From NCBI GenBank assembly GCA_947444195.1, contig CANEZL010000004.1, positions 1 through 64,000 on the forward strand: a DNA stretch of 64,000 nucleotides, written 5' to 3'. The translations under genes were made by a program, and so were the position numbers. The notes beneath the pieces were generated by a model, which made no database searches, was not told where the DNA came from, and was given only the letters and a program-made list of their open reading frames with translations. Shown here in pieces: positions 17,989 to 32,343 of this stretch. How positions within the stretch are numbered: position 1 is the first letter of the stretch; each line of letters begins with the position of its first letter. The stretch is from Methylobacteriaceae bacterium (lineage in GTDB: Bacteria > Pseudomonadota > Alphaproteobacteria > Rhizobiales > Beijerinckiaceae).

Positions 17989-18028
17989 CGTGTAAGCCGC
18001 GCACCCGCTGGTCCGAAGACCATCGCTT

Positions 18029-18130
18029 AGAGCACGATGCGAAAAAGTGGAATCCGGTTTTTCGGGATCGTCGTGCGATCACAAAAAGATAGAGCGTGCT
18101 GCTGTTTCCCTGAAAAAGCAGCACGCTCTA
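18029..18130. repeat. Twin-hairpin dispersed repeat, copy A
   Basis: About 100 bp made of two imperfect hairpins: one beginning GCACGATGCG with the loop segment GTGGAATCCGG, and a second with arms AGAGCGTGCTGCTG / AGCAGCACGCTCT. Four other copies occur at 19817, 45413, 51134 and 51949. Intergenic, between the hydrolase and fkbM. Confidence 0.85.
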
Positions 18131-18202
18131 GAGCACCCCGGCGGGGCAGGGCAACGCGCCGGCGCTTGCCCGGGGCCGGTTCCGCTGTCATCACCCCGCC
18201 CG

Positions 18203-19805: not shown

Positions 19806-19816
19806 CGCCCGGGGTT

Positions 19817-19920
19817 TAGAGCTCGATGCGGAAAAGTGGAATCCGGTTTTCCGACATCATCGTGCGACCACGAAGAGATGGAGCGTGCTGCCGTTTCCGT
19901 GAAAGAGCAGCATGCTCTAG
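19817..19920. repeat. Twin-hairpin dispersed repeat, copy B
   Basis: Same structure and orientation as copy A (GTGGAATCCGG loop segment, then arms around GAGCGTGCTGCC and AGCAGCATGCTC). Lies 12 nt upstream of sfsA and 86 nt upstream of the MoaB/CinA-like gene, between divergent starts. Confidence 0.85.
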
Positions 19921-20005
19921 GCCGCGGGCCGCGCCGGCGGAAGACGTGGCCGGGCCCACGCGCCCGCGCTATCTGCGGAGCAACCCCCGAGCCTCCCGGA
20001 CCCGC

Positions 20006-20740
20006 ATGAGCACCGACACCGTCACCGCCGCGATCCTCGTCATCGGCGACGAGATCCTGTCCGGGCGCACGAAGGACAGGAACATCGGCACCATCGCCGA
20101 CTATCTCACCGCCATCGGCATCGCGCTGCGCGAGGTGCGCATCGTGCCCGACGAGGCCGAGGCCATCGTCGCGGCGGTGAACGCGCTGCGCGCCTCCCAC
20201 ACCTACCTGTTCACCACCGGCGGCATCGGCCCGACCCACGACGACATCACCGCCGATTGTGTGGCCGCGGCCTTCGGCGTCGGCATCGACGTGGACCCGC
20301 GCGCCCGGGCGATGCTGCTGGAGCGGCACAAGCCCGAGGACCTCAACGCGGCGCGCCTGCGCATGGCCCGCATCCCGGAGGGGGCCGACCTCATCCCGAA
20401 CCCGATCTCGAAGGCGCCGGGCTTCCACATCGGCAACGTCTTCGTGATGGCCGGCGTGCCCGCGATCATGCAGGCGATGCTCGACGCGGTGGGGCCGAGC
20501 TTGGCGACGGGCGCGCGCATGCTCTCCGAGACGATCGAGGCGGGGGGGCTCCCCGAGGGCGCCTATGCCGGGGGCCTGGCCGAGATCGCGAAGGATTTTC
20601 CCGGCGTCTCCATCGGCTCCTATCCCTCGATGACGGAGGCGGGCTTCCGCAACCGCATCGTCGTGCGCAGCACGGATGCCGCCGCTCTGGCCGAGGCGCA
20701 GGGGGCGGTGCAGGCGCTGGTCGCGGGGCTGACGGGGTAG
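20006..20740 (+). CDS. Competence/damage-inducible-like molybdopterin-binding protein (MoaB/CinA N-terminal domain)
   Basis: 244 residues with a single molybdopterin-binding fold of the MoaB/MogA/CinA superfamily. It begins AAILVIGDEILSGRTKDRN and contains the signature TTGGIGPTHDDITADCVAAAF. It lacks the CinA nicotinamide-nucleotide amidase domain, so it corresponds to the stand-alone CinA-N form common in alphaproteobacteria. The biochemical role is uncertain; binding of a pterin or ADP-ribose-like ligand is inferred from the family. ATG at 20006. Confidence 0.85.
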   Translation: MSTDTVTAAILVIGDEILSGRTKDRNIGTIADYLTAIGIALREVRIVPDEAEAIVAAVNALRASHTYLFTTGGIGPTHDDITADCVAAAFGVGIDVDPRARAMLLERHKPEDLNAARLRMARIPEGADLIPNPISKAPGFHIGNVFVMAGVPAIMQAMLDAVGPSLATGARMLSETIEAGGLPEGAYAGGLAEIAKDFPGVSIGSYPSMTEAGFRNRIVVRSTDAAALAEAQGAVQALVAGLTG

Positions 20741-20922
20741 GAGCGGTCGGGCGTCCAGTTACAACTCTACGTAGATCTACAGGGAGAACCCCGCCGCGAG
20801 CCTTCGCGAGGGCCCGGGGGCCAAGCTAGGCTGTTCCCGCCGACATTGCCTCGCGGGGAGGGCCCCATGCCGACGCCGTTGCTCTGGTCCTGCCCCCGCG
20901 CCCCGGCCCTCGGCGGCCCGCG

Positions 20923-21597
20923 ATGAGCTACGGCATCCGCCTGCACGTCTGGGGCGAGCGCGCCCTGTTCACGCGCCCGGAGATGAAGGTCGAGCGCGTC
21001 TCCTACGACGTGATGACGCCGTCGGCCGGCCGCGGCATCGTCGAGGCGGTGCTGTGGAAGCCGCAGATCCGCTGGGTGGTCGACCGCATCCACGTTCTCC
21101 GGCCGATCCGCTTCCAGTCCCTCCGGCGCAACGAGGTCGGCGCCAAGGCTTCCGCCGTCAACGCCGAGCGGGCCATGCGCGCGGGCACCACCGCCGGGCT
21201 CGGCCTCGTGGTGGAGGAGCACCGGCAGCAGCGGGCGGCGACGCTGCTGGTCGACGTCGCCTACGTCATCGAGGCGCATTTCACGCTGACCGACAAGGCC
21301 GGGCCGGAGGACAGCCCGGCCAAGTATCTCAGCATGTTCAACCGCCGCGCTGGGGCCGGCCAGTGCTTCCACCGGCCCTGCCTCGGCACCCGCGAGTTCC
21401 CGGCCGATTTCGAACTTCTGCCCCCCGGGGCCCCGCTGCCCGAGAGCCGCTTCCCGGCCGACCCGCCGGTGCGCGACCTCGGCTTCATGCTGCACGACAT
21501 CGTCGGCCCGCGGCGGGAACCGCGCTTCTTCCGGGCCGAACTCGTCGGCGGTGTGCTCGACGTCGCCGCCTGCCTCGACCGGGGGAGCGTGGCGTGA
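20923..21597 (+). CDS. cas5c: Cas5c, type I-C CRISPR pre-crRNA endonuclease and Cascade subunit
   Basis: 224-residue Cas5d/Cas5c protein. In type I-C systems, which have no Cas6, it cuts the repeat RNA and stays bound to the 11-nt 5' handle. A RAMP-like fold is suggested by IRLHVWGERALFTRPEMKVERVSYDVMTPSAGRGIVEAVLWKP, and VVEEHRQQRAATLL lies where the catalytic histidine region is expected. First gene of cas5-cas8-cas7; its stop overlaps the cas8c GTG start. ATG at 20923; the preceding 180 nt should contain the operon promoter, but I see no clear -10/-35. Confidence 0.93.
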   Translation: MSYGIRLHVWGERALFTRPEMKVERVSYDVMTPSAGRGIVEAVLWKPQIRWVVDRIHVLRPIRFQSLRRNEVGAKASAVNAERAMRAGTTAGLGLVVEEHRQQRAATLLVDVAYVIEAHFTLTDKAGPEDSPAKYLSMFNRRAGAGQCFHRPCLGTREFPADFELLPPGAPLPESRFPADPPVRDLGFMLHDIVGPRREPRFFRAELVGGVLDVAACLDRGSVA

Positions 21598-23414
21598 GCG
21601 TCCTTCAGGCCCTCGACCGCTACTACGCCCGCATGGCCGCCCGTGGCGAGGCCGAGGCGCCGGGCACTTCGCGGGAGAAGATCGGCCTCTGCGTCGTCCT
21701 CGACCCGGATGGGACGGTGACCGGGATCGCCGACCTGCACGAGCGGGACGGCCGCAAGGCGAAGCCCCGGCTCCTGGAAGTGCCGGCGGCCGTCAAGCGC
21801 ACGGCGGGTATCCTGCCGAACCGGTTCTGGGACAAGACCTCCTACACGCTGGGCCGCACCGCCGGCGCGGGCAAACGCACCGGCGAGGAGCACGCGGCCT
21901 TCAAGGCGCTGCACCGCGACCTCCTCGCCGGCACGGACGATCCCGGCCTCCTGGCTCTCGCTCGCTTCCTGAGCCGCTGGGACCCGGCCGGGCTCGACCA
22001 TTTTCCCGAGGCCGTGTCGGCCCTCGACGCGAACGTCGTGTTCCGGCTCGCCGGCGAGCACGGCTACATCCACGAGCGCGAGGCCGCGCGGCGCCTTCTC
22101 ACCGGCGTGGCCGCGGAGGGCGAGGCCGGCGCGGTCTGCCTCGTCACGGGCGAGACCGCGGTGCCGGCCCGGCTCCATCCCGCCATCAAGGGGGTCTGGG
22201 GGGCGCAATCCTCCGGCGCGGCCCTGGTCTCGTTCAACCTCGACGCCTTCACCTCCTACGGCAAGGCGCAAGGGGACAACGCGCCGGTGAGCGAGGCCGC
22301 CGCCTTCCGCTACGGCGCGGCCCTGAACCGGATGCTCGATGCGGGGAGCCGCAACCGCTTGGCCCGCCCCATCGGCGACGCCACCGTGGCGTTCTGGGCC
22401 GACACCTCGGAGGCGGTGAAGGAGCATGCGGCCAAGGCCGCCGAGGACTGGTTCGCGGCGCTGATCGAGCCGCCCCCCGCCGACGACCAGGAGGCCGCCA
22501 AGATCCGCGACGCCCTCGACGCGGTGGCCGCGGGCCGCGCGGTCGCCGACGTCGCCCCCGGCGTGGTGCCCGGCACCCGCTTCCACGTGCTCGGCCTCGC
22601 ACCCAATGCCGCGCGGCTCTCGGTGCGCTACTGGCTCGACGACACCTTCGAGCATTTCGCCGAGCGCCTCGCGCAGCACCATGCCGACCTCCGCATCGAG
22701 CCCAAACCCCGCCGCTGGGGCGCGGCCCCGGCGATCGGCCGCCTGCTCGTGCAGACGACGGCGCTCGCCGAGAAATTCGAGAACATCCCGCCCCTGCTCG
22801 CCGGCGAGGTCACCCGCGCGGTGCTGGCCGGCACGCCCTATCCCCGCAGCCTGCTCGCCGCCGCCCTCATCCGCCTGCGGGCCGGCGACGACGCGGGCAG
22901 CGGCTGGCACGCGGCCGTGATCCGCGCCGTGCTCGTGCGGGAGAAGCGCATCCGCACCGGGGCCGCCCCCGAGATGACGAAGGAGGAACTGGTGAGCCTC
23001 GAAAGAACGCGGGAGAACGACCCCGCCTATCATCTCGGGCGCCTGTTCGCGGCGCTGGAGGCCGCCCAGCGCCTCGCGCTCGGGCGCATCAACGCCACGA
23101 TCCGCGACCGCTATTTCGGCGCCGCCTCGGCCGCGCCCGCCGGTGTGTTCCCGCTGCTCCTGCGCGGCGCCCAGAGCCACGTGGGCAAGCTGCGCAAGGA
23201 GCGCAAGGACGGCTGGATCGAGCGCGAGATCGCCGAGATCGTCGAGCGCCTGCCGCCGGCCCTGCCGCGCACGCTGAAGCTCGAGCAGCAGGGGCGCTTC
23301 GCCATCGGCTACTACCACCAGCGCCAGGCGCAGTTCGCCGGGCGGCCGGAGGTGAAGGCCGCCATCGAGGCCGACGCCGAGACCGAGATCAACGGGGAGG
23401 ACGGGGATGTCTGA
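21594..23414 (+). CDS. cas8c: Cas8c (Csd1), type I-C Cascade large subunit
   Basis: 606 residues, the normal size for Csd1/Cas8c, the large subunit that reads the PAM and positions the R-loop. Recognisable stretches include LPNRFWDKTSYTLG, CLVTGETAVPARLHPAIKGVWGAQSSGAALVSFN, AFWADTSEAVKEH and PAYHLGRLFAALEAAQ. GTG at 21594 overlaps the cas5c stop. The last eight bases overlap the cas7c start. The 3' quarter contains an internal start for the small subunit Cas11c, annotated separately. Function in DNA recognition is from the family. Confidence 0.93.
   Translation: MSVLQALDRYYARMAARGEAEAPGTSREKIGLCVVLDPDGTVTGIADLHERDGRKAKPRLLEVPAAVKRTAGILPNRFWDKTSYTLGRTAGAGKRTGEEHAAFKALHRDLLAGTDDPGLLALARFLSRWDPAGLDHFPEAVSALDANVVFRLAGEHGYIHEREAARRLLTGVAAEGEAGAVCLVTGETAVPARLHPAIKGVWGAQSSGAALVSFNLDAFTSYGKAQGDNAPVSEAAAFRYGAALNRMLDAGSRNRLARPIGDATVAFWADTSEAVKEHAAKAAEDWFAALIEPPPADDQEAAKIRDALDAVAAGRAVADVAPGVVPGTRFHVLGLAPNAARLSVRYWLDDTFEHFAERLAQHHADLRIEPKPRRWGAAPAIGRLLVQTTALAEKFENIPPLLAGEVTRAVLAGTPYPRSLLAAALIRLRAGDDAGSGWHAAVIRAVLVREKRIRTGAAPEMTKEELVSLERTRENDPAYHLGRLFAALEAAQRLALGRINATIRDRYFGAASAAPAGVFPLLLRGAQSHVGKLRKERKDGWIEREIAEIVERLPPALPRTLKLEQQGRFAIGYYHQRQAQFAGRPEVKAAIEADAETEINGEDGDV
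22992..23414 (+). CDS. cas11c: Cas11c small subunit from an internal start within cas8c
   Basis: In-frame GTG at 22992 inside cas8c is preceded by a perfect AAGGAGG (22980-22986) with 5-nt spacing, far stronger than most ribosome binding sites in this window. Translation from here gives 140 residues starting VSLERTRENDPAYHLGRLFAAL, helical and basic, ending with cas8c. In type I-C systems the hidden small subunit Cas11c is known to be made by internal initiation in cas8c, and it stabilises the non-target strand in the complex. ATG at 22974 is an alternative start. Production here is inferred from sequence. Confidence 0.75.
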   Translation: MSLERTRENDPAYHLGRLFAALEAAQRLALGRINATIRDRYFGAASAAPAGVFPLLLRGAQSHVGKLRKERKDGWIEREIAEIVERLPPALPRTLKLEQQGRFAIGYYHQRQAQFAGRPEVKAAIEADAETEINGEDGDV

Positions 23415-24345
23415 GGAAGCGGGCGTCACGCGCCGCCACGAATTCGTGCTCTACTTCGACGTCGCCAACGGCAACCCGAACGGCGATCCGGACGCCGGCA
23501 ACCTGCCGCGCCTCGACCCCGAGACCAACCAGGGCCTCGTCTCGGACGTCGCCCTCAAGCGCAAGATCCGCAACTACGTGGCGCTCGCCCGCCCCGACGC
23601 GCCCGGCCACGAGATCTACATGCGCGACGGCGCGACGCTCAACGTCGAGCACAAGCGCGCCTGGGGTGCGGTGATGCCCGAGGTGACGAAGGCGGAGGAT
23701 CTGAAGAAGGGGCCGAAGGAGGCCGACAAGGCCCGCGCGCTCACCCGCTGGATGTGCGCCAATTTCTGGGACATCCGCGCCTTCGGGGCGGTGATGACCA
23801 CCGGGGTCAATGCCGGCCAGGTGCGGGGCCCCGTGCAGATCGCCTTCGCCCGCTCCATCGAGCCGGTGCTGCCCCTGGAGATCGCCATCACGCGGCTCGC
23901 CGCCACCACCGAGGCCGATGCCGAGGCCAAGGGCGGGCGCACCATGGGCCGCAAGTTCATCGTGCCCTACGGGCTCTACCGCGCCCACGGCTTCGTCTCG
24001 GCCCCGCTCGCCTCGCATCCCACCAAGGGCACCGGCTTCTCGGACACCGACCTCGACCTGCTGTTCGAGGCGCTCACCAATATGTTCGACCACGACCGCT
24101 CGGCCGCCCGCGGCGAGATGGCGACCCGCAAGCTCGTCGTCTTCCGCCACGCCTCGGCGCTGGGCAACGCCCCGGCGCACGCCCTGTTCGACCGGGTGAA
24201 GACTTTTCGGATGCACAAGGACAGCCGTCAGCCGATCGGCGCGGACGCCATCGACAACTGGCCGGCGGCGCGCAGCTTCGCAGACTACGCGGTGACGGTG
24301 GACCGGGAGGGGCTGCCGGAGGGCGTGGAGGTGATCGAGCGGTGA
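23407..24345 (+). CDS. cas7c: Cas7c (Csd2), Cascade backbone subunit
   Basis: 312-residue Csd2/Cas7c protein that polymerises along the crRNA spacer. The start HEFVLYFDVANGNPNGDPDAGNLPR is the family signature, with later TTGVNAGQVRGPVQIAFARSIEPV and GRKFIVPYGLYRAHGF. It overlaps cas8c by eight bases and is the last gene of the interference operon. After its stop comes an unusual 297-nt gap before cas4 that holds a degenerate repeat RNA, its target, and a small ORF. Confidence 0.95.
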   Translation: MSEEAGVTRRHEFVLYFDVANGNPNGDPDAGNLPRLDPETNQGLVSDVALKRKIRNYVALARPDAPGHEIYMRDGATLNVEHKRAWGAVMPEVTKAEDLKKGPKEADKARALTRWMCANFWDIRAFGAVMTTGVNAGQVRGPVQIAFARSIEPVLPLEIAITRLAATTEADAEAKGGRTMGRKFIVPYGLYRAHGFVSAPLASHPTKGTGFSDTDLDLLFEALTNMFDHDRSAARGEMATRKLVVFRHASALGNAPAHALFDRVKTFRMHKDSRQPIGADAIDNWPAARSFADYAVTVDREGLPEGVEVIER

Positions 24346-24361
24346 GGGTGAGCCCGCTCCT

Positions 24362-24438
24362 CACGCCTGGAACCAGGCCTTGGGCAACCGCGCTAGTGTT
24401 TCAATCCGCACCCCACGGAGGGGCGACCGGAGCGGGCT
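24362..24438 (-). ncRNA. Putative crRNA-like regulatory RNA (CreA/CreR-type) with one degenerate repeat
   Basis: On the minus strand, 24427-24398 is a 30-nt degenerate copy of the array repeat: it starts GTCGCCCCT, keeps a CCCC/GGGG stem, and its last 12 bases GCGGATTGAAAC are identical to the array repeat, so the Cas5c 5' handle is intact. The following pseudo-spacer (24397 downward) begins ACTAGCGCGGTTGCCC. No second repeat follows; instead GCCTGGTTCCAGGC (24378-24365) can fold as a hairpin that may end the RNA or the guide. A promoter lies directly upstream. The first 16 guide bases match a PAM-flanked site at 24484-24499. The arrangement is that of CreA/CreR RNAs, which guide Cascade to a nearby promoter without cleavage. 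The ends are approximate. Confidence 0.8.
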
Positions 24439-24444
24439 CGTCAC

Positions 24445-24474
24445 AACATACAGCCGCAGCCTCATCCGGCGCAA
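24445..24474 (-). promoter_or_regulatory. Predicted promoter of the crRNA-like RNA
   Basis: Minus-strand TTGCGC (24474-24469) and TATGTT (24450-24445) separated by 18 nt. Transcription would begin about 10 nt before the degenerate repeat. The AT-rich -10 stands out in this GC-rich sequence. Confidence 0.55.
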
Positions 24475-24480
24475 GCATGG

Positions 24481-24499
24481 TTCACTAGAGCGGTAGCCC
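24481..24499 (+). promoter_or_regulatory. PAM plus pseudo-protospacer for the crRNA-like RNA
   Basis: TTC at 24481-24483 (the usual type I-C PAM) is followed at once by ACTAGAGCGGTAGCCC (24484-24499). It equals the guide ACTAGCGCGGTTGCCC except at positions 6 and 12, where Cascade flips the base out and does not read it. From position 17 on there is no match, so binding without Cas3-driven cleavage is expected. The site is 7 nt upstream of the RNA's own -35 and 65 nt upstream of the small ORF; a possible plus-strand -35 TTGCCA (24505-24510) would fall inside a Cascade footprint. Confidence 0.8.
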
Positions 24500-24563
24500 G
24501 TCCATTGCCAAGACCGAATGGATGTGATTGTCTCCGGTCTGCGGATTCGCGCCGGAGGTTGTC

Positions 24564-24662
24564 ATGCTGGAATTTACGATCGTGGCTGGGCTTGGTCTGC
24601 TCATTCTGGGATTCATGGATTTGAAGCTCGCGGCTGTTCCCCATGCCCGCCCCGCCCCCTGA
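24564..24662 (+). CDS. Small hydrophobic 32-residue protein between cas7 and cas4; candidate toxin or leader peptide
   Basis: ATG at 24564 is preceded by GGAGG (24554-24558) with 5-nt spacing, a strong ribosome binding site. The 32-codon frame starts MLEFTIVAGLGLLILGFMDL, one predicted membrane helix, and ends in a Pro-rich tail (PHARPAP). Codon use is unlike the neighbours: codons ending in A or T (TTT, GCT, CTT, GGT, ATT, GGA, GAT) are frequent, whereas adjacent cas genes almost always use G/C. The frame overlaps the cas4 start by 20 bases. Because the Cascade-target site lies just upstream, it is a candidate for the repressed toxin of a CreTA-like pair; alternatively it is a leader peptide coupling translation to cas4. 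Toxicity is inference. Confidence 0.6.
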   Translation: MLEFTIVAGLGLLILGFMDLKLAAVPHARPAP

Positions 24663-25284
24663 CCCCACCGCCGAGGACGCGCTGATCCCGCTCTCGGCGC
24701 TCCAGCACCATCTGTTCTGCCCGCGCCAGAACGCGCTCATCCACGTGGAGCAGATCTGGGCGGAGGATGCGGCGACCGCGGAGGGGCGGCTCCTGCACGA
24801 GCGGGTGGATGCCGGCGGGTCCGAGGGGCAGCCGGGGATCCGGGTCGCCCGCGGGCTGGCCCTGCGCTCCCTGGCGCTCGGCGTGGCGGGCCGGGCCGAT
24901 GCGGTCGAGTTCCGGGGGCGCCCGCCGCGGCCCTATCCGGTGGAGTACAAGCGCGGCAAGCCCAAGGCCCACCGGGCCGACAAGGTCCAGCTCTGCGCGC
25001 AGGGTCTCTGCCTGGAGGAGATGTTCGGCGTCGAGATCCCCGAGGGCGCCTTGTTCTACGGCGCCACCCGGCGGCGGCAGGCCGTGGCCTTCGATGCCCC
25101 CTTGCGCGCCCTCACCGCGCGGGTGGCGGCCGAGGCGCGCGCCGTGATCGCGGGCGGCACGACGCCGGCGCCCGTGAAGACGTCCGCCTGCCGCCGCTGC
25201 TCGTTGGAGGATCTCTGCCGGCCGGACCGGCTGGCGCGGGCCCCGCGGATCGCCCACTGGCTCGCCGCGCAGATCGAGGCGTGA
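24643..25284 (+). CDS. cas4: Cas4, CRISPR adaptation exonuclease
   Basis: 213-residue RecB-family nuclease with an iron-sulfur cluster that works with Cas1-Cas2 in choosing and trimming PAM-containing prespacers. One cysteine near the N terminus (HHLFCPRQ) and three at the C terminus (SACRRCSLEDLC) would bind 4Fe-4S; GRADAVEF and YPVEYKRGKPK carry the PD-(D/E)xK catalytic residues. ATG at 24643 has only a weak ribosome binding site of its own and lies inside the upstream small ORF, suggesting coupling. First of the adaptation genes cas4-cas1-cas2. Confidence 0.93.
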   Translation: MPAPPPDPTAEDALIPLSALQHHLFCPRQNALIHVEQIWAEDAATAEGRLLHERVDAGGSEGQPGIRVARGLALRSLALGVAGRADAVEFRGRPPRPYPVEYKRGKPKAHRADKVQLCAQGLCLEEMFGVEIPEGALFYGATRRRQAVAFDAPLRALTARVAAEARAVIAGGTTPAPVKTSACRRCSLEDLCRPDRLARAPRIAHWLAAQIEA

Positions 25285-25291
25285 GACGGCC

Positions 25292-26332
25292 ATGCGTACC
25301 TTACGCAACGCCATCTACGTCACCAGCGAGGAGGCGTGGCTGCGCAAGGACGGCGAGAACCTCGTGGTGGAGGTCGCCGGCGCCGAGCGCGGCCGGGTGC
25401 CCCTGCACCGGATCGAGGGCGTGGTCAGCCTCGGCCGGGCCGGCGCCTCGCCGAAGCTGCTGGCGGCCTGCGCCGAGGCGGGCATCGCCGTCTCGCTCCT
25501 CGATCCGAACGGGCGCTTCCTCGCCCGCGTCGAGGGCCCACGCAGCGGCAACGTGCTCCTGCGGCGCCAGCAATACCGCGTCGCCGACGATCCCCCGCGC
25601 ATGGTGCCGATCGTGCGCGGCATCGTGGCGGCCAAGGCCGCCAACCAGCGCGCCGTGCTGCGCCGCGCCCTGCGCGACCACGCCGAGCGGATCGGGCCGG
25701 CGGGCGGGCAGGCCCTGGAGGCCGCCGAGCGCCGGCTGACCGACGCGGCCCGGCGCACCCTCGCGGCCGAGACCGTGGACAGCCTGCGCGGCATCGAGGG
25801 CGAGGCGGCCTCCGTCTACTTCGCGGTGTTCCCCCACCTGATCCGGGTCGAGGACCCGGCCTTCGCCTTCGGCGGCCGCTCGCGCCGGCCGCCGCTGGAC
25901 CGGATCAACGCCCTGCTCTCGTTCCTCTACGCCATGCTCGGCCACGATTGCCGCGCCGCGCTCGAGACCCACGGCCTCGATCCGCTGGTGGGCTACCTCC
26001 ACGCCGACCGGCCGGGCCGCGCGGGCCTCGCCCTCGACCTGATGGAGGAGCTGCACCCGGTGCTCGCCGACCGGCTGGCGCTGAGCCTCGTGAACCGGCG
26101 CCAACTCGCGGCCGACGACTTCTTCATCGAGGAGGCCGGCGGCGTGCGCCTCACGGACGAGGCCCGCAAGCGGGTCCTCGTCGCGTGGCAGGAGCGCAAG
26201 CGGGAGGAGCTGCGCCACCCCTTCCTCGACGAGAGCCTGCCGCTGGGCCTCGTCGCCCAGGCCCAGGCGCAGATGCTGGCCCGGCACCTGCGCGGCGATC
26301 TCGACGGCTACCCGACCTTCGTCTGGCGGTGA
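25292..26332 (+). CDS. cas1: Cas1, CRISPR integrase
   Basis: 346-residue type I-C Cas1, the metal-dependent integrase that inserts new spacers at the leader end of the array. The catalytic Glu is in RGIEGEAASVYF, His in VGYLHADRPGRAGLALDLMEE and the acidic partner in the same block. Begins MRTLRNAIYVTSEEAWLRKDGE. ATG at 25292, 7 nt after cas4; cas2 follows after 7 nt. The whole motif set is intact, so adaptation is probably functional. Confidence 0.96.
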   Translation: MRTLRNAIYVTSEEAWLRKDGENLVVEVAGAERGRVPLHRIEGVVSLGRAGASPKLLAACAEAGIAVSLLDPNGRFLARVEGPRSGNVLLRRQQYRVADDPPRMVPIVRGIVAAKAANQRAVLRRALRDHAERIGPAGGQALEAAERRLTDAARRTLAAETVDSLRGIEGEAASVYFAVFPHLIRVEDPAFAFGGRSRRPPLDRINALLSFLYAMLGHDCRAALETHGLDPLVGYLHADRPGRAGLALDLMEELHPVLADRLALSLVNRRQLAADDFFIEEAGGVRLTDEARKRVLVAWQERKREELRHPFLDESLPLGLVAQAQAQMLARHLRGDLDGYPTFVWR

Positions 26333-26339
26333 CGCGGCC

Positions 26340-26630
26340 ATGCTGATGCTCGTCGCCTACGACGTGAACACCGCTTCCCCGGCCGGGCGGACGCGGTTGC
26401 GGCGCGTGGCCCGGGCCTGCCTCGATTACGGCCAGCGGGTGCAGAACTCGGTCTTCGAGTGCGAGTTGGAGCCGGCCCAGTGGACGGCCCTGCGGGCGCG
26501 CCTCGTCGCCGAGATCGACCCCGCCCGCGATTCCCTGCGCTTCTACCGGCTCGGCGCCGAAGGCCGGCGCCGCGTCGAGCATGTCGGCGCCAAGCCCGTC
26601 CTCGACCTCGACGGACCGCTCGTGTTCTGA
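26340..26630 (+). CDS. cas2: Cas2, CRISPR adaptation protein
   Basis: 96-residue Cas2, the dimeric scaffold of the Cas1-Cas2 integrase. The N-terminal beta strand MLMLVAYDVNTASPAGRTRLRRVARAC contains the conserved Asp, and NSVFECELEPAQW is the usual second block. It ends the adaptation operon; the leader and array begin directly downstream in the same direction. Confidence 0.95.
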   Translation: MLMLVAYDVNTASPAGRTRLRRVARACLDYGQRVQNSVFECELEPAQWTALRARLVAEIDPARDSLRFYRLGAEGRRRVEHVGAKPVLDLDGPLVF

Positions 26631-26810
26631 GCGCGCGAACCGGAAGCGACCGGCCCCCGCGTCACCGGTTCGCGCACGCGCCAACCCCCTGATGCGGCGC
26701 GCCTTTCCCCCAGCCGACCCCCACGCCCTCGCCGCAGCAGGGCCGCCCGCGCGCCGGTTCGCGCAACGGGACGGATTCCCTGCATCGGATCAGTTCGTTA
26801 CGAAGGGGCC
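26631..26810 (+). promoter_or_regulatory. CRISPR leader
   Basis: 180-nt noncoding stretch between the cas2 stop and the first repeat. It contains an 11-bp motif CCGGTTCGCGC twice in direct orientation (26665-26675, 26754-26764) and once inverted (26633-26643). These could be leader recognition or promoter elements. The first repeat side is confirmed as leader-proximal because the degenerate repeat is at the far end. Confidence 0.75.
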
Positions 26811-27754
26811 GTCGCCCCCTCACGGGGGCGCGGATTGAAACCTCGCCGCCGATGCCCTCGAATGCCTGATCCGGCGTCGCCCCCTCACGGGGGCGCGGAT
26901 TGAAACACCAACATGCCGGGCACGCTCCGGACCCCGCTGGTCGCCCCCTCACGGGGGCGCGGATTGAAACAACTACCTGCACGGCATCGAGACCGTCGAG
27001 CTCAACGTCGCCCCCTCACGGGGGCGCGGATTGAAACCCCAGCGCGTGGGTGATGTAGTGCCCGTCGAGCTGTCGCCCCCTCACGGGGGCGCGGATTGAA
27101 ACCACTGCGCCAGAAGTTGAGCGGCGCTTCGGTCATGTCGCCCCCTCACGGGGGCGCGGATTGAAACAAGGCGGAGCCGGTGCTGGACCTCTACAGCTTC
27201 GGGTCGCCCCCTCACGGGGGCGCGGATTGAAACAGCCTCGACGAGTTCGGCGAGGTCGAGATCTGGGGGTCGCCCCCTCACGGGGGCGCGGATTGAAACC
27301 ACGCGGGCTATGTGGCCTTGACGCAGTCGTTCGGGGTCGCCCCCTCACGGGGGCGCGGATTGAAACGTCCTCTCGACGCGCGATGCGTTCCCGGTCGATC
27401 GTCGCCCCCTCACGGGGGCGCGGATTGAAACTACCACACGAGCACCCATGACCACGGCGCGCCTAGTCGCCCCCTCACGGGGGCGCGGATTGAAACTCGA
27501 ACTGGCCGAGATACGCCCGCATCCGCGCCGAGTCGCCCCCTCACGGGGGCGCGGATTGAAACGCCTCGACCAGCGCCTGCGCGAGTTGCGGCACGGTCGC
27601 CCCCTCACGGGGGCGCGGATTGAAACAGCCACAACAACTGCGGCGGCCACTGCTGCAAGGTCGCCCCCTCACGGGGGCGCGGATTGAAACATGGGGAAGC
27701 TGCCGGTGCTGCGCCAGTTCTAGGGCCGCCCCCTCGCGGGGGCACGAATGAAAC
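26811..27754 (+). CRISPR. Type I-C CRISPR array, 15 repeats and 14 spacers
   Basis: Fourteen identical 31-bp repeats that begin GTCGCCCCCTCACGGG and finish GGCGCGGATTGAAAC start at 26811, 26876, 26940, 27007, 27072, 27137, 27203, 27269, 27336, 27401, 27466, 27532, 27596 and 27660. A degenerate last repeat lies at 27725-27754. Spacers are 33-36 nt and all different from one another. The GATTGAAAC end and CCCCC/GGGGG stem are typical of type I-C. The array is transcribed away from cas2. Short open frames through it are artefacts of the repeat. Spacer targets cannot be assigned without a search. Confidence 0.98.
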
Positions 27755-27772
27755 ACCGAGAAGGGCCGCGTC

Positions 27773-30019
27773 TCAGGCGATGATGTTGTCCTCCGCCGCG
27801 CGCTCGGCCGGGCCGTCGAGGCGCAGGCCCGTCCGCGGGTCGTAGAGGTCGAGGTCGTCGAGGCGCAGGAGGGCCTCGCCGAGGCCGGGATGGACCGGGC
27901 GGAGGAGGCCCTGCGCCAGCCAGGCTGCCCGGATGCGCGCCGGCACCGGCACCGTGTAGCCCTGCAGGCTGCGCAGGTCGGCGGCCAGCGGCCGGTCCAT
28001 GGCCGCGATGCGCCCGAGGAGTTCGGCGGCGGCCGTGTCCTGCGCATCGGCGCGCCAGGGCACGATCACCGGCTCCATCGCCTCGTCGACGAGGCGGAAC
28101 ACCTGCGCGATGGAGGCGAAAGGGAACGCGCCCGTCCCCGCGCGCTCGGCGATGTGCGGGAGGATCGGCCAGACCTGCCCGTCGCGGCGCCCGGCATCGA
28201 GGGCCGCCGGCCCCTTGCGGAAGTAGAGTTCCCGGAAGTAGGCCCGCACCGCCTCCGCCGCGAGGGGATCCTCGGCCGTGCGCAGGTGCGGCAGCGCCGC
28301 CGCCCAGGGGGCCTCGAGGTCCCGCGGCAGGCGGCCCTCGGCCTCGAACACCACGACGCGCCCGGCCGCCATCCGGCCCTCCCGGTTGCAGCGCCCGGCC
28401 GCCTGCGCCACCGCGTCGAGGCCGGCGGCCGCGCGCCAGACCTCGGGCAGGTCGATGTCGACCCCGGCCTCGATGAGCGAGGTGCTCACGATCCGCACCG
28501 GCGCGTCCGCGGTGCGCAGGCGCGCCCGGGCGTCGTCGAGCACGGTCCTCCGGTGGCGCGGGCACATCAGCGTGGAGAGGTGGACGGCGCCGGGCAGGTC
28601 GCGGATCCCCTCGAACAGGGCGCGGGCCTGGGCGCGGCTGTTGACGATGCACAGCATCCGCGGCGCCTCCCCGAAGCGCGCGGCGACGCCCGCATCCGCC
28701 ACGGGGCCTCGATGCTCCACCGCGACGCGCCGGAACTGCCGGTAGAGGCGCGGCGGGTCGGGGGCGAGTTCGCGCTCCGCGTCCACCTCCAGCCCGCCGG
28801 GAAACCCGTCGATGGCCCGCAGGGCCGGCTGCGTGGCCGTGCACAGCACGAGGCTCACCCGGTAATTGGCGGCGAGTTCGGCGATGGCGGCGAGGCAGGG
28901 GCGCAGCAGGCGCAGCGGCATGGCCTGCGCCTCGTCGAGCACGACGACGCTGCCGGCGATGTTGTGCAACTTGCGGCAGCGGGCGGTGCGGTTGGCGAAC
29001 AGGCTCTCGAAGAACTGCACCGCCGTGGTCGCCACCACGGGCGCGTCCCAGTTCTCGGCGGCCCGGCGCAGGCGCGAGGCGGCGTCCGCGCCGAAGCCCT
29101 CGTCCGCCGCGCCGGCGGCTTCCCAGTCGAAGCTCGCATGGTGTTCCAGCACTCCCGCATCGGCCCCGAGGGCGTGCCGGAACACCGCGGCGTTCTGCTC
29201 GATGATCGCGGTGAAGGGCGCCACGTGGATGACGCGCCGCAGGCCGTGGATCGCGGCGTGTTCCAGGGCGAAGGCCAGGGAGGCCAGCGTCTTGCCGCCC
29301 CCCGTGGGCACGGTGAGCGTGAACAGGCCCGGCGCCAGCCCGGCGCGGCCGACCGCGTGGTCGAGGATCTCCCCGCGCAGGGCGTTGACGGGGCTCGGCA
29401 CCGCACCGAGCCCGGCGAGATGCGCCCGCAGGCGGTCGCGCAGGATGGCGATGTCGGGGTGGCCCCCGCGCGCGACCGGGGCGCCCCCGGCGTAGAAGCG
29501 CTCGGTCTCCAGGAAATCGGCGTCGACGAGGCAGGAGAACAGCATGCGGGTCAGCATCGCCCAGTCGAAGCCCTTGGCCGCGTTCGCGGTGGGGCGCCGG
29601 TCCGGCCTCAGCGCCGCGAAGGGCGGGAGGGGAGCGGTCTGCGCCTGCCAGCCGTCATAGGCCGGGATGTCGTGGGCGGGATCGAGCCGGCGGTCGAGAT
29701 CCGGTCCGTCGCAGAGCCCGGCATGATGGCCCGCGACGATGGCCGCGAGCGTGCGGCCGAGGAGGCCCGGATAGGCGGCGGCGACGCGGGCGCCGGCCGT
29801 CGAATGGTCGCGGCTCGGGCCCTCGCCGCGCAGGTAGCGCTGCACTTCCGGCGAGACCTTGCCGATGTCGTGGAGGTATCCGGTGGCGCGCGCGGCCTCG
29901 GCCCAGCCGAACACGGCCGCGAAGGCCGCGGCCCGCTCGCCCACCGCCGCATGGTGGTCCCGCAGCAATTCCCACGCGGTCAGGGGCCGACCGGGGAGCG
30001 AGTGCCCATAGACCGCCAT
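27773..30019 (-). CDS. cas3: Cas3, CRISPR helicase-nuclease
   Basis: 748-residue fusion of an N-terminal HD nuclease and a C-terminal SF2 helicase that degrades DNA marked by Cascade. HD motif in ATGYLHDIGKVSPEVQ and a second histidine pair in IVAGHHAGL; Walker A TVPTGGGKTLASLA, DEAD-box-like VVLDEAQAMPLR, motif III LCTATQPAL and motif VI AAGRCNREGR. ATG at 30019. It lies on the opposite strand on the far side of the array and is transcribed toward it, rather than heading the cas operon as is usual for type I-C. Its stop is only 18 nt from the last repeat, so the array and cas3 are convergent. Confidence 0.95.
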   Translation of the reverse strand: MAVYGHSLPGRPLTAWELLRDHHAAVGERAAAFAAVFGWAEAARATGYLHDIGKVSPEVQRYLRGEGPSRDHSTAGARVAAAYPGLLGRTLAAIVAGHHAGLCDGPDLDRRLDPAHDIPAYDGWQAQTAPLPPFAALRPDRRPTANAAKGFDWAMLTRMLFSCLVDADFLETERFYAGGAPVARGGHPDIAILRDRLRAHLAGLGAVPSPVNALRGEILDHAVGRAGLAPGLFTLTVPTGGGKTLASLAFALEHAAIHGLRRVIHVAPFTAIIEQNAAVFRHALGADAGVLEHHASFDWEAAGAADEGFGADAASRLRRAAENWDAPVVATTAVQFFESLFANRTARCRKLHNIAGSVVVLDEAQAMPLRLLRPCLAAIAELAANYRVSLVLCTATQPALRAIDGFPGGLEVDAERELAPDPPRLYRQFRRVAVEHRGPVADAGVAARFGEAPRMLCIVNSRAQARALFEGIRDLPGAVHLSTLMCPRHRRTVLDDARARLRTADAPVRIVSTSLIEAGVDIDLPEVWRAAAGLDAVAQAAGRCNREGRMAAGRVVVFEAEGRLPRDLEAPWAAALPHLRTAEDPLAAEAVRAYFRELYFRKGPAALDAGRRDGQVWPILPHIAERAGTGAFPFASIAQVFRLVDEAMEPVIVPWRADAQDTAAAELLGRIAAMDRPLAADLRSLQGYTVPVPARIRAAWLAQGLLRPVHPGLGEALLRLDDLDLYDPRTGLRLDGPAERAAEDNIIA

Positions 30020-30130
30020 GACCCCACCCGTGCGAAAGCACCCCTCGGCGCGGGCGCGCCGCGGCCCTACCATCCCCTCGGACGGCGCGTTGCGGAAGCT
30101 GCGGGCGCCGATATTGCTCAGGTTGTCCCG

Positions 30131-31147
30131 ATGATTCCGTCCGGCTCCTCGCCGCAACCGCCCGCGGCCAGATCCGAGAAACGATCCGGGAACCGGACCG
30201 CCCCGGTTCTGCTCCCGTTCGCGCCGCCCTACGACTGGGACGCCGTGCTGGCCTATCTCGCCGCCCGCGCCATTCCCGGCGTCGAGGCGTGCGGGCCCGG
30301 CCTCTATGCCCGCACCTTCGCTCACGCGGGCGGGCACGGGATCCTCACGGTGGCGCGGGCGGGCGATGCCCTCGCCGTCACGGGCGCCGCGCCCGGCATC
30401 GAGGCCCGGATCCGGCGGCTCTTCGACCTCGATGCCGATCCGGGTGCGATTCGCGCGGGTCTGGCCCGCGATCCGCTGATGGCGCCCCTCGTCGCGGCCC
30501 GGCCGGGCCTGCGGGTGCCCGGCGCCTTCGACGGGTTCGAGCTCGCGGTGCGGGCGATCCTCGGCCAGCAGGTCTCGGTGGTGGCCGCCACCCGGCTCGC
30601 GGGCCGCCTGGTCGCGGCCTTCGGCGCAGGGTTGCCGGACGGCGCGCCCTCCGAGCCCGGCCTCACCCACCTCTTCCCCACGCCTGAGGCCCTGGTGGAG
30701 GCCGATGTCGCCCTCGCCCTCAACATGCCCCGCGCCCGGGGCGCCGCGATCCGGGCGCTCGCCGTCGCGGTGCTCGCCGAGCCGGACCTGTTCGCGCCGG
30801 GGCAGGGGCTCGCGGCGGCCACCGCCCGCCTCACGGCCCTGCGCGGCATCGGCGCCTGGACGGCGCAGTACATCGCCATGCGGGCCCTGCGCGAGCCGGA
30901 CGCCCTGCCCACCGGCGATATCGGCCTGCTGCGCGCCCTCGAAGAGGCCGGGCGCCGCCCGAGCGCGCGGGATCTGGAGGCGCGCTCCGCCGCCTGGCGG
31001 CCCTGGCGCGCCTACGCCGTCCTCCACCTCTGGGCCCACGACGCGGCGCGGGCCCACGACGCGGCGCGGGCGCGCGACGCGGCCCGGATTGCCGAGCAAG
31101 GTGCGGGATGCGCGGGGGACGCGAAGGGCGCAGGAAGGGTACCGTGA
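30131..31147 (+). CDS. alkA: DNA-3-methyladenine glycosylase II
   Basis: 338-residue HhH-GPD DNA glycosylase of the AlkA type, which removes alkylated purines and pyrimidines. AILGQQVSVVAATRLAGRLV and the helix-hairpin-helix LRGIGAWTAQYIAMRAL followed by the catalytic Asp in LPTGDIGLLRALEEAG are diagnostic. ATG at 30131, divergent from cas3 by 111 nt. The C terminus ends in a degenerate HDAARAHDAARARDAAR tail encoded by a tandem repeat. The next gene encodes Ada, which controls and complements alkylation repair in E. coli, so the two likely form an adaptive-response operon. Confidence 0.92.
   Translation: MIPSGSSPQPPAARSEKRSGNRTAPVLLPFAPPYDWDAVLAYLAARAIPGVEACGPGLYARTFAHAGGHGILTVARAGDALAVTGAAPGIEARIRRLFDLDADPGAIRAGLARDPLMAPLVAARPGLRVPGAFDGFELAVRAILGQQVSVVAATRLAGRLVAAFGAGLPDGAPSEPGLTHLFPTPEALVEADVALALNMPRARGAAIRALAVAVLAEPDLFAPGQGLAAATARLTALRGIGAWTAQYIAMRALREPDALPTGDIGLLRALEEAGRRPSARDLEARSAAWRPWRAYAVLHLWAHDAARAHDAARARDAARIAEQGAGCAGDAKGAGRVP
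31034..31087 (+). repeat. Three tandem 18-bp repeats at the end of alkA
   Basis: Units at 31034, 31052 and 31070 (GCCCACGACGCGGCGCGG, the third varied). They encode the H/RDAARA tail, suggesting recent expansion by slippage. Confidence 0.85.
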
Positions 31148-31182
31148 GCGGGCAGGGGCCCGCGCCGCGGGGAGGACGCGCC

Positions 31183-32343
31183 ATGACGATCACCACATCC
31201 GGGACGGCCGCCGAGGCGCGGGACGCGGCGATGGCCGACGATGCGGCGATGGCCGACGACGCGGCGATGGCCGACGATGCGGCGCGCTGGGCGGCGCTCC
31301 TGGCGCGCGACCCCCGCGCCGACGGCCGCTTCGTCTACGCCGTGCGCACCACCGGCGTGTATTGCCGCCCGAGCTGTCCCTCCCGGGCCGCGCGGCGGGA
31401 GAATGTCAGCTTCCACGCCAGCTGCGCCGCCGCCGAGGCGGCGGGCTTCCGCCCCTGCCGCCGCTGCCGCCCCGACGAGCCCTCCCGCGCCGAGCGCCGG
31501 GCCGAGGCGGTGGCCCGGGCCTGCCGCCTGATCGAGGCCGCGGAGACGGTGCCCGGCCTCGACGCCATGGCGCAGGCCGCCGGGATGAGCCCGTTCCACT
31601 TCCACCGGGTGTTCCGGGCGGTCACCGGCATCACGCCCCGGGCCTATGCCGAGGCGCGGCGGGCGGACCGGGCGGCGGTCGCCCTGCAGCGGGCGGGCTC
31701 GGTGACCGAGGCGGTCTACGAGGCCGGCTACAATTCCGCGAGCCGGTTCTACGCTCAGGCGCCCGAGCGGCTCGGCATGGCGCCCGCGGCCTATCGCCGG
31801 GGCGGGGTCGGCGCCCGCATCCGCTTCGCGGTGGCGCAATGCGCGCTGGGCGCGCTCCTGGTCGCGGCGACCGAGGCGGGCCTGTGCGCGATCCTGCTCG
31901 GCGACGACCCGGACGCCCTCGTCCGCGAGCTTCAGGACCGCTTTCCGCGGGCCGCGCTGTCGGGGGGCGATGCCGCGTTCGAGGCCTGGGTGGCGCAGGT
32001 CGTCGGCTTCGTCGAGGCGCCGGGCCGCGGCCTCGACCTGCCGCTGGACATCGGCGGCACCGCCTTCCAGCAGCGGGTCTGGGCGGCCCTGCGGGCGATT
32101 CCCCTGGGCCGGACGGCGACCTATGCCGAGATCGCCCGCGCCATCGGCGCGCCCGCGGCGGTGCGGGCGGTGGCCCAGGCCTGCGGCGCCAATCGCCTCG
32201 CGGTGGCCATCCCCTGCCACCGGGTCGTGCGCTCGGACGGCGCGCTGTCCGGCTACCGCTGGGGCGTGGCGCGCAAGCGCGACCTCCTCGCCCGCGAGGG
32301 GGCCCTCGCCCACGAGGGGGGCTCGCCCGCGAGGGAGCGGTGA
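31183..32343 (+). CDS. ada: Bifunctional Ada: transcriptional activator and O6-methylguanine-DNA methyltransferase
   Basis: 386-residue Ada protein. The N-terminal zinc domain has four cysteines (TGVYCRPSCPSR and FRPCRRCRP), of which the first accepts methyl groups from phosphotriesters; an AraC-type helix-turn-helix follows (MSPFHFHRVFRAVTGITPRAYAEARR). The C-terminal alkyltransferase domain has the active-site motif AVAIPCHRVVRSDG. The start at 31183 follows GGGGAGGA; GTG at 31144, overlapping the alkA stop, is an alternative. The first 35 residues contain three MADDAA-type repeats from a tandem DNA repeat. It would repair O6-methylguanine and activate alkylation-response genes. Confidence 0.93.
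   Translation: MTITTSGTAAEARDAAMADDAAMADDAAMADDAARWAALLARDPRADGRFVYAVRTTGVYCRPSCPSRAARRENVSFHASCAAAEAAGFRPCRRCRPDEPSRAERRAEAVARACRLIEAAETVPGLDAMAQAAGMSPFHFHRVFRAVTGITPRAYAEARRADRAAVALQRAGSVTEAVYEAGYNSASRFYAQAPERLGMAPAAYRRGGVGARIRFAVAQCALGALLVAATEAGLCAILLGDDPDALVRELQDRFPRAALSGGDAAFEAWVAQVVGFVEAPGRGLDLPLDIGGTAFQQRVWAALRAIPLGRTATYAEIARAIGAPAAVRAVAQACGANRLAVAIPCHRVVRSDGALSGYRWGVARKRDLLAREGALAHEGGSPARER
31222..31275 (+). repeat. Three tandem 18-bp repeats near the start of ada
   Basis: Units at 31222, 31240 and 31258 (GACGCGGCGATGGCCGAC with one variable base). They encode the DAAMAD repeats in the poorly conserved N terminus of Ada. Confidence 0.9.

Follow-up and report, generated by a model that had tools for sequence, protein, structure and literature searches.

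A candidate CreA-like guide and its partial target in the type I-C CRISPR-Cas locus of a Methylobacteriaceae bacterium

Introduction

CreTA modules and CreR RNAs are known kinds of Cascade-guided regulators. The earlier described creTA genes surround cas6 of type I or type III systems, and a further one was found in the cas3-csy1 gap of a type I-F system (PMC10097628). This I-F module, from Acinetobacter WCHA45, has a guide with a degenerate repeat (psi-repeat) in an insertion between cas genes that most relatives lack, a partial target flanked by the PAM CC, and a Shine-Dalgarno-led mini-ORF of 33 bp downstream of the target and divergent from creA; the pairing of guide and target skips the 6th, 11th and 18th of 20 positions (PMC10097628). 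In the type I-B modules of Haloarcula hispanica and Halobacterium hubeiense the PAM is TTC and positions 1-5 and 7-11 pair; for H. hubeiense CreA these ten positions are needed, whereas positions 6 and 12 are not and can be freely changed (PMC8501985). The three CreT described are toxic as RNA, not as peptide, among them the Acinetobacter one (PMC10097628, PMC8501985), and the haloarchaeal CreT acts by sequestering rare tRNAs via AGA or AUA codons in its RNA.

CreR RNAs are crRNA-like guides that repress cas promoters via limited pairing (review PMC12737573) and are named for types I-B, I-E and V-A (PMC13131331). In CrePA a CreA-like guide represses the gene of a toxin, the KilA-N-type protein CreP, which anti-CRISPRs would release (PMC12737573). 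Type I-C systems have Cas5c in place of a separate Cas6 (PMC7684278). The term I-C is absent from the main text of PMC8501985, PMC12737573, PMC10097628, PMC9458426 and PMC12948488, and in the portion of PMC13131331 covered here type I-C is mentioned solely for an anti-CRISPR. Among the titles and abstracts listed in a literature search, which did not extend to the founding 2021 Science paper or the primary CreR paper, none is on a type I-C module of this kind.

Here we describe a lone psi-repeat with a guide in a type I-C locus, which on sequence grounds is a CreA/CreR-like guide, appears to be new for this subtype and likely works like the CreA of CreTA. It lies in a stretch of 64,000 nucleotides, called the window below (GenBank assembly GCA_947444195.1, contig CANEZL010000004.1, positions 1 to 64,000). 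The locus resembles the Acinetobacter module in the place of its psi-repeat guide, in an insertion between cas genes, in the PAM-flanked partial target, in the Shine-Dalgarno-led mini-ORF downstream of the target and divergent from the guide, and in a pairing that skips positions. It differs in being type I-C, with no Cas6/Csy4, in its PAM TTC, in having one psi-repeat, a second being doubtful, and in a frame of 32 codons that is hydrophobic and overlaps cas4. TTC and the paired blocks 1-5 and 7-11 are shared with the haloarchaeal modules, the mismatches at positions 6 and 12 correspond to the freedom at these positions in H. hubeiense, a crRNA-like guide of limited pairing is shared with CreR, and a CreA-like guide with CrePA. 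Unlike the named CreR cases, the window has a hydrophobic mini-ORF together with the acquisition genes downstream of the target, and unlike CreP the predicted product is a hydrophobic peptide of 32 residues and not a KilA-N-type protein.

Organization of the type I-C locus

The gene content marks the locus as type I-C. On the plus strand it consists of cas5c (20923-21597), whose product would process the repeat RNA, cas8c (21588-23414, start approximate), cas7 (type I-C, Csd2; 23407-24345), cas4 (24643-25284), cas1 (25292-26332), cas2 (26340-26630) and a CRISPR array (26811-27749) with 31-nt repeats (GTCGCCCCCTCACGGGGGCGCGGATTGAAAC), the final copy of which is degenerate. The cas3 gene (27773-31099, minus strand) encodes HD and helicase domains in an ORF with an N-terminal extension.

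Between the end of cas7 at 24345 and the start of cas4 at 24643 lie 297 bases. When the loci of 80 relatives were compared, 10 had no cas4 in the stretch; in the 70 others the gap measures at most 50 bases in 59, 74 bases in one and more than 200 bases in 10. Methylobacterium sp. Leaf118 (L006), the sister row of the window in the Cas7 tree with a support of 86, below the 95 that the tree program stars, has 8 bases between the two genes, and the gap is 8-18 nt in the three Methylobacterium loci L006, L007 and L026. In the stretches examined of three other Methylobacterium loci, L002, which is nearest by path in the tree, L004 (M. oryzihabitans TER-1) and L008, no cas4 was found. The Cas7 tree omits one of the 136 loci of the survey described below, whose Cas7 is short or broken. 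The G+C content of the gap is 61% (58% in its right part), compared with 70% in cas7 and 76% in cas4. Because the gap is short in most relatives and its G+C content is lower, the guide module appears to have been inserted between cas7 and cas4 of the cas operon.

A search of window positions 20000-32000 against Rfam at gathering thresholds gave no match. A search with the whole gap across 397 genomes of the order yielded, apart from the window itself, three matches of just 22-30 nt, and two of these, L082 and L083, were read and contain no such module.

Psi-repeat, guide and target

The psi-repeat is 30 nt long and lies on the minus strand at 24398-24427, as the earlier note had claimed. It retains the first 8 (GTCGCCCC) and the last 12 bases (GCGGATTGAAAC) of the array repeat. 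The window contains 15 copies of the latter sequence, of which 14 belong to the array and one to the psi-repeat, with 0.02 occurrences expected. The stem-loop is also retained, with a sequence altered from that of the array repeat; the element is thus a repeat-like sequence with stem-loop and handle sequence that lies outside the array and within the cas locus, as in described CreTA modules.

The guide (psiS) starts at 24397 and reads ACTAGCGCGGTTGCCC; its comparison with the target covers 16 positions, 24382-24397 on the minus strand. It is followed by a small hairpin, GCCTGGTTCCAGGC (24365-24378, minus strand), which may be a 3' handle or a second degenerate repeat. Psi-repeat and guide are bracketed by a perfect 11-bp inverted repeat on the minus strand, with its 5' arm at 24429-24439, immediately upstream of the psi-repeat, and its 3' arm at 24350-24360. 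This stem, as read from the sequence, would close the creA-like RNA into a single hairpin. The fold of the whole RNA has a z-score of -1.75, and 13 of 200 shuffled sequences fold equally well.

On the plus strand the PAM TTC (24481-24483) is followed by the partial protospacer ACTAGAGCGGTAGCCC (24484-24499), separated from the guide by 86 bases. Guide positions 1-5, 7-11 and 13-16 match, which makes 14 of 16 with mismatches solely at 6 and 12, exactly as first reported, and Cascade bound there would probably reach to about 24518. TTC had been named as a type I-C PAM, in agreement with the type I-C system of Neisseria lactamica, for which the PAMs are TTC and TTT (PMC10865793). The locus therefore has, near its guide and flanked by a PAM of its subtype, a site partly complementary over positions 1-5 and 7-11, the arrangement by which CreTA modules are recognized. 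The assembly of 4.83 Mb contains a single copy of the string TTCACTAGNGCGGT, and the target site is unique.

The claim that a chance match is very unlikely was borne out when the 800 bases surrounding the site were shuffled 20,000 times with dinucleotide content preserved: of the shuffled sequences none contained TTC with the ten core positions (1-5 and 7-11), none the full pattern, and 12 contained a match of at least 14/16 anywhere with no PAM required. When 38 array spacers (from both arrays of the genome, with exact repeat ends) were compared with 11.2 kb around the cas genes, none reached 10/10 core positions after TTC; the best was one spacer at 9/10. The second array of the genome (contig C23, 17730-19249; L221) has 24 repeats with a different stem, GTCGCTCCCTCACGGGAGCGCGGATTGAAAC. 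A search of the genome for cas7 gave one match.

Related type I-C loci

The survey combined 80 loci with a related cas7, 60 more with wide flanks and the window, 141 in total and 136 after five duplicates were dropped. Fragments and several Cas7 matches near contig ends were left out of the 60, and loci with short flanks (L085-L149) did not enter the survey. Lone repeats were picked by repeat sequence and position alone, blind to targets, which gave 31 in 31 loci, window included, that met the position and score rule among 151 lone-repeat matches. A further 19 in the same gaps scored just 12/15, and 4 of these reach at least 9/10 core positions, while the core match never exceeds 8/10 for the 101 lone repeats elsewhere.

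A target was counted when at least 9 of the 10 positions 1-5 and 7-11 matched within 400 bases. With TTC required, 24 of the 31 lone repeats between cas genes have a partial target, compared with 1 in 930 when guides were tried on the regions of other loci, 1 in 155 (at 9/10) for the array spacers of the loci themselves and 1 in 3,100 for shuffled regions. With no PAM required the count is 26 of 31, and the triplet preceding the target is TTC in 24 cases and TTT in two; the corresponding cross-locus control gave 26 in 930, and TTC is not among its eight commonest leading triplets. The remaining five lone repeats have no 9/10 match even in this PAM-free search, although L015, which is among the five, reaches 8/10 after TTC. 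Together with the shuffles and the survey controls, the PAM-free search rules out a chance origin of the guide-target match, and the array spacers, both those of the surveyed loci and the 38 of this genome, rule out that it is a property of any spacer.

The two targets preceded by TTT, in L067 and L027, match at 10/10 core positions; L067 belongs to a Micavibrio assembly and is placed at a long distance from the window by the Cas7 tree. Outside the scored set, L061 (9/10) and L070 (10/10), from Chromatiales and Aeromonadaceae assemblies, have weaker repeats with TTC-flanked targets in the first 500 bases, and these would extend the pattern beyond the Alphaproteobacteria.

Addition of four weaker repeats to the 24 gave 28 pairs with TTC. 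Of these, 19 lie upstream of cas5 and 6 between cas7 and cas4; the other 3 are some 1.8 kb ahead of cas7, a distance that puts them at the start of cas8c. Across the 28 pairs, matches are found in 26-28 at each of positions 1-5, in 23-28 at positions 7-11 and in 12-24 at positions 13-17. The selection took no account of positions 13-17, and 95 of their 140 cells match (binomial tail 2e-26, treating loci as independent). The number of matching pairs drops to 5 at position 6, to 3 at position 12 and to 3 at position 18; jointly these are 11 matches in 84, compared with 21 expected (p 0.006). Positions 19-24 are at background (37/168). With five matching pairs, position 6 is not always mismatched.

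Guide and target are seen to change together in L175, L176 and L177, whose Cas7 are nearly identical (end branches of 0-0.013) and whose gaps can be aligned: L176 has a different guide from L175 and L177, and its target is altered in the same way. The earlier note had proposed to look in related type I-C loci for guides and targets that co-vary while sparing positions 6 and 12, and this search succeeded; together with the concerted change it supports the reading as a CreA/CreR-like module in a type I-C locus, in which repression is the inferred part. The parts of the module and the co-evolution of guide and target are apparent from the sequences compared. Most of the 26 psi-repeats that were folded retain the stem-loop, with sequences unlike those of the arrays; L049, L053, L066 and L170 are clear exceptions.

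An ordinary mini-array that targets its own locus, and would cleave it but is tolerated because pairing stops early, is extremely improbable. TTC is a functional PAM in a type I-C system (PMC10865793), which speaks for this reading, but self-cleavage is expected to be lethal, the HD and helicase domains of cas3 are present, and the end of pairing near position 17 in the 28 pairs fits guides that do not cut, such as CreA.

The mini-ORF and the small frames of relatives

Downstream of the target and divergent from the guide, a Shine-Dalgarno sequence GGAGG (24554-24558, plus strand) precedes a hydrophobic mini-ORF of 32 codons, MLEFTIVAGLGLLILGFMDLKLAAVPHARPAP (24564-24662, plus strand), our candidate for creT; its start is 80 nt from that of the protospacer. 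The presence of such a frame at this place agrees with described CreTA modules. The earlier note does not mention this mini-ORF or its overlap with cas4, nor the small frames of relatives and the module site upstream of cas5, which is the commoner one. The hydrophobic core has a mean Kyte-Doolittle value of 2.39 over 15 residues, and the frame is predicted to encode a toxic membrane peptide. In shuffles of the stretch, a Shine-Dalgarno-led mini-ORF of any kind appears in 4.5% (strict rule) or 18% (the rule used for the count in 28 modules), and a hydrophobic one in 0 of 3,000, with a hydrophobicity threshold that was fixed after the frame was seen.

No relative of the peptide was found beyond its own locus; one search gave four weak matches (E 0.01-0.08), which lie inside longer frames, and the 32-codon frame has no match in Pfam or NCBIfam. 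The mini-ORF may accordingly be untranslated or non-toxic. The hairpin that covers its start does not exceed chance in strength (z -0.06). It has no AGA, AGG or ATA codons and hence lacks the AGA/AUA signature of haloarchaeal RNA toxicity, which does not define all CreTA; ATT and GGA codons, absent from five cas genes, are present in it. The lack of peptide relatives is what could be expected of a dead relic, that is, a stray repeat and spacer which an earlier array insertion left behind and whose match is accidental or a fossil. This we regard as very improbable, as the stem-loop, the handle, the PAM and all 14 of 14 read positions are retained and 26 of the 31 lone repeats show the pattern.

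In the 28 modules a frame was sought that is Shine-Dalgarno-led, has 20-45 codons and starts 10-110 bases from the target. It is present at 16 of the 28 targets, with 4.8 expected from shuffles, so that some of the 16 could be accidental. Peptide families were sorted by eye. One, whose members have a basic start and end in, for example, EWEPP, comprises L041, L042, L022, L024, L028, L039, L040 and L009, with L015 and L189 as looser members; the frames of L022, L028 and L040 fail the strict Shine-Dalgarno rule. This family is represented at the site upstream of cas5 as well as in the cas7-cas4 gap, and modules therefore seem to move between the two sites. Hydrophobic or amphipathic frames are found in L205, L198, L182, L066, L053 and L048. 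In L022, L024, L028, L039, L040, L041, L042, L009 and L015 the basic start goes with an end of E-W/Y and then P-P, P-L or P-I. Ends of proline followed by stop are reminiscent of nascent-chain stalling. The same arrangement of guide, target and mini-ORF was observed upstream of cas5 in L009, L020, L041, L042, L047, L048, L053, L066, L182, L189, L198 and L205.

The mini-ORF overlaps the start of cas4 by 20 nt, and the acquisition genes may thus share its control. This overlap, the lack of a visible Shine-Dalgarno sequence of cas4's own and the lack of any terminator found between the mini-ORF and cas4, with cas4-cas1-cas2 downstream on the same strand, would suit a regulator of the CreR type with no toxin. 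Its guide would repress the cas4-cas1-cas2 promoter and tune acquisition to the amount of free Cascade, and the mini-ORF would be a leader for translation coupling. Consistent with this, 12 of the 28 targets have no Shine-Dalgarno-led mini-ORF by the strict rule. These include L049 and L175-L177, where the pairs lie close upstream of cas5 and the guides appear to be aimed at the region before that gene; the four are likely CreR-type regulators of the cas operon. For the window a CreR-type regulator is rather unlikely: its mini-ORF has a strong Shine-Dalgarno sequence and a hydrophobic core not reproduced by shuffling, the frames at this place in the 28 modules are well above the number expected, and the peptide-family frames in L022, L028 and L040 come in addition to them.

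Promoter signals at the target

The best promoter-like sequence on the target (24484-24511, minus strand) is TTGGCA, 16 nt, TCTAGT, which agrees at 9 of 12 positions; this weak candidate for PcreA points at the psi-repeat. A stricter promoter scan found none at the target, the best plus-strand sequence there has 7/12 with none convincing, and promoter-like sequences are not enriched at the targets of the 28 pairs (mean z 0.18). No terminator was found after the guide. Given these weak signals, the target may sit on the guide's own promoter, on that of the mini-ORF or on both, and the divergent layout allows it to overlap both promoters.

If the sole promoter on the target were that of the creA-like gene, Cascade would fix the level of the guide and the module would do nothing else. 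The orientation of the candidate promoter speaks for such a self-limiting guide, as does the CreA of Halobacterium hubeiense, which autoregulates the shared promoter PcreTA (PMC8501985). We consider it improbable as the whole explanation, which would leave the mini-ORF and the retention of the module unexplained and would not account for the peptide-sized frame between target and guide in many relatives.

Proposed mode of action

The preferred reading, to which we give a probability of roughly 0.6, is that the guide of the creA-like gene likely brings the cell's own Cascade to the partial site and thereby silences the mini-ORF, as candidate CreT, and perhaps the acquisition genes. The guide would be transcribed from the minus strand, and Cas5c, in a subtype with no Cas6, would cut the transcript and yield the 5' handle. 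The crRNA-like guide would then load into Cascade, which would bind at about 24481-24518 and block the divergent plus-strand transcript but not cut the DNA. A precedent is a type I-C Cascade that lowered expression when placed at a TTC-flanked site over a -10 element (PMC10865793). The repressed transcript would carry the 32-codon mini-ORF, taken here as the toxin CreT, and continue into cas4-cas1-cas2. In the study of expression at the -10 element, Cas3 is said to have been absent.

A cell with such a module would depend on a working Cascade, and loss of Cascade, its block by an anti-CRISPR or a surplus of crRNA would free the peptide (or a toxic RNA) together with the acquisition genes. Within this same scheme the guide may have its promoter on the target site and would then be self-limiting. 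That all three described CreT act as RNA counts against a peptide toxin here. A broader proposal, in which one Cascade-guided switch holds down both a membrane-peptide toxin and the spacer-acquisition operon, and in which alphaproteobacterial type I-C loci often carry guide-controlled genes for small peptides of several unrelated families, is tentative and on the doubtful side.

The PAM-flanked local targets of 26 of the 31 lone repeats suggest that Cascade-guided self-control reaches another common subtype. They also provide a sequence rule for finding more such modules: handle, TTC or TTT, and the paired blocks 1-5, 7-11 and 13-17. The small frames at the targets of relatives, the EWEPP family included, add a new set of candidate small toxins, whose action would set in once a phage disables CRISPR. 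Should the proposed scheme be true, loss, blocking or saturation of Cascade would arm the toxin and turn on cas4-cas1-cas2 together, and this would be an addiction layer in Cas6-less alphaproteobacterial type I-C systems, undescribed in the portions of the literature covered here.

Further features

A lone copy of GCGGATTGAAAC on contig C60 of the genome was rejected as chance; by eye no repeat-like stem precedes it, and it adjoins a transposase-like frame. The cas3 gene of the window lies on the opposite strand beyond the array, as if an inversion or insertion had moved it; in loci such as L042 and L047, by eye, cas3 is found upstream of cas5. At 18027-18131 and 19816-19920 the window contains two 105-nt copies of a sequence that are 87% alike and 1.8 kb apart.
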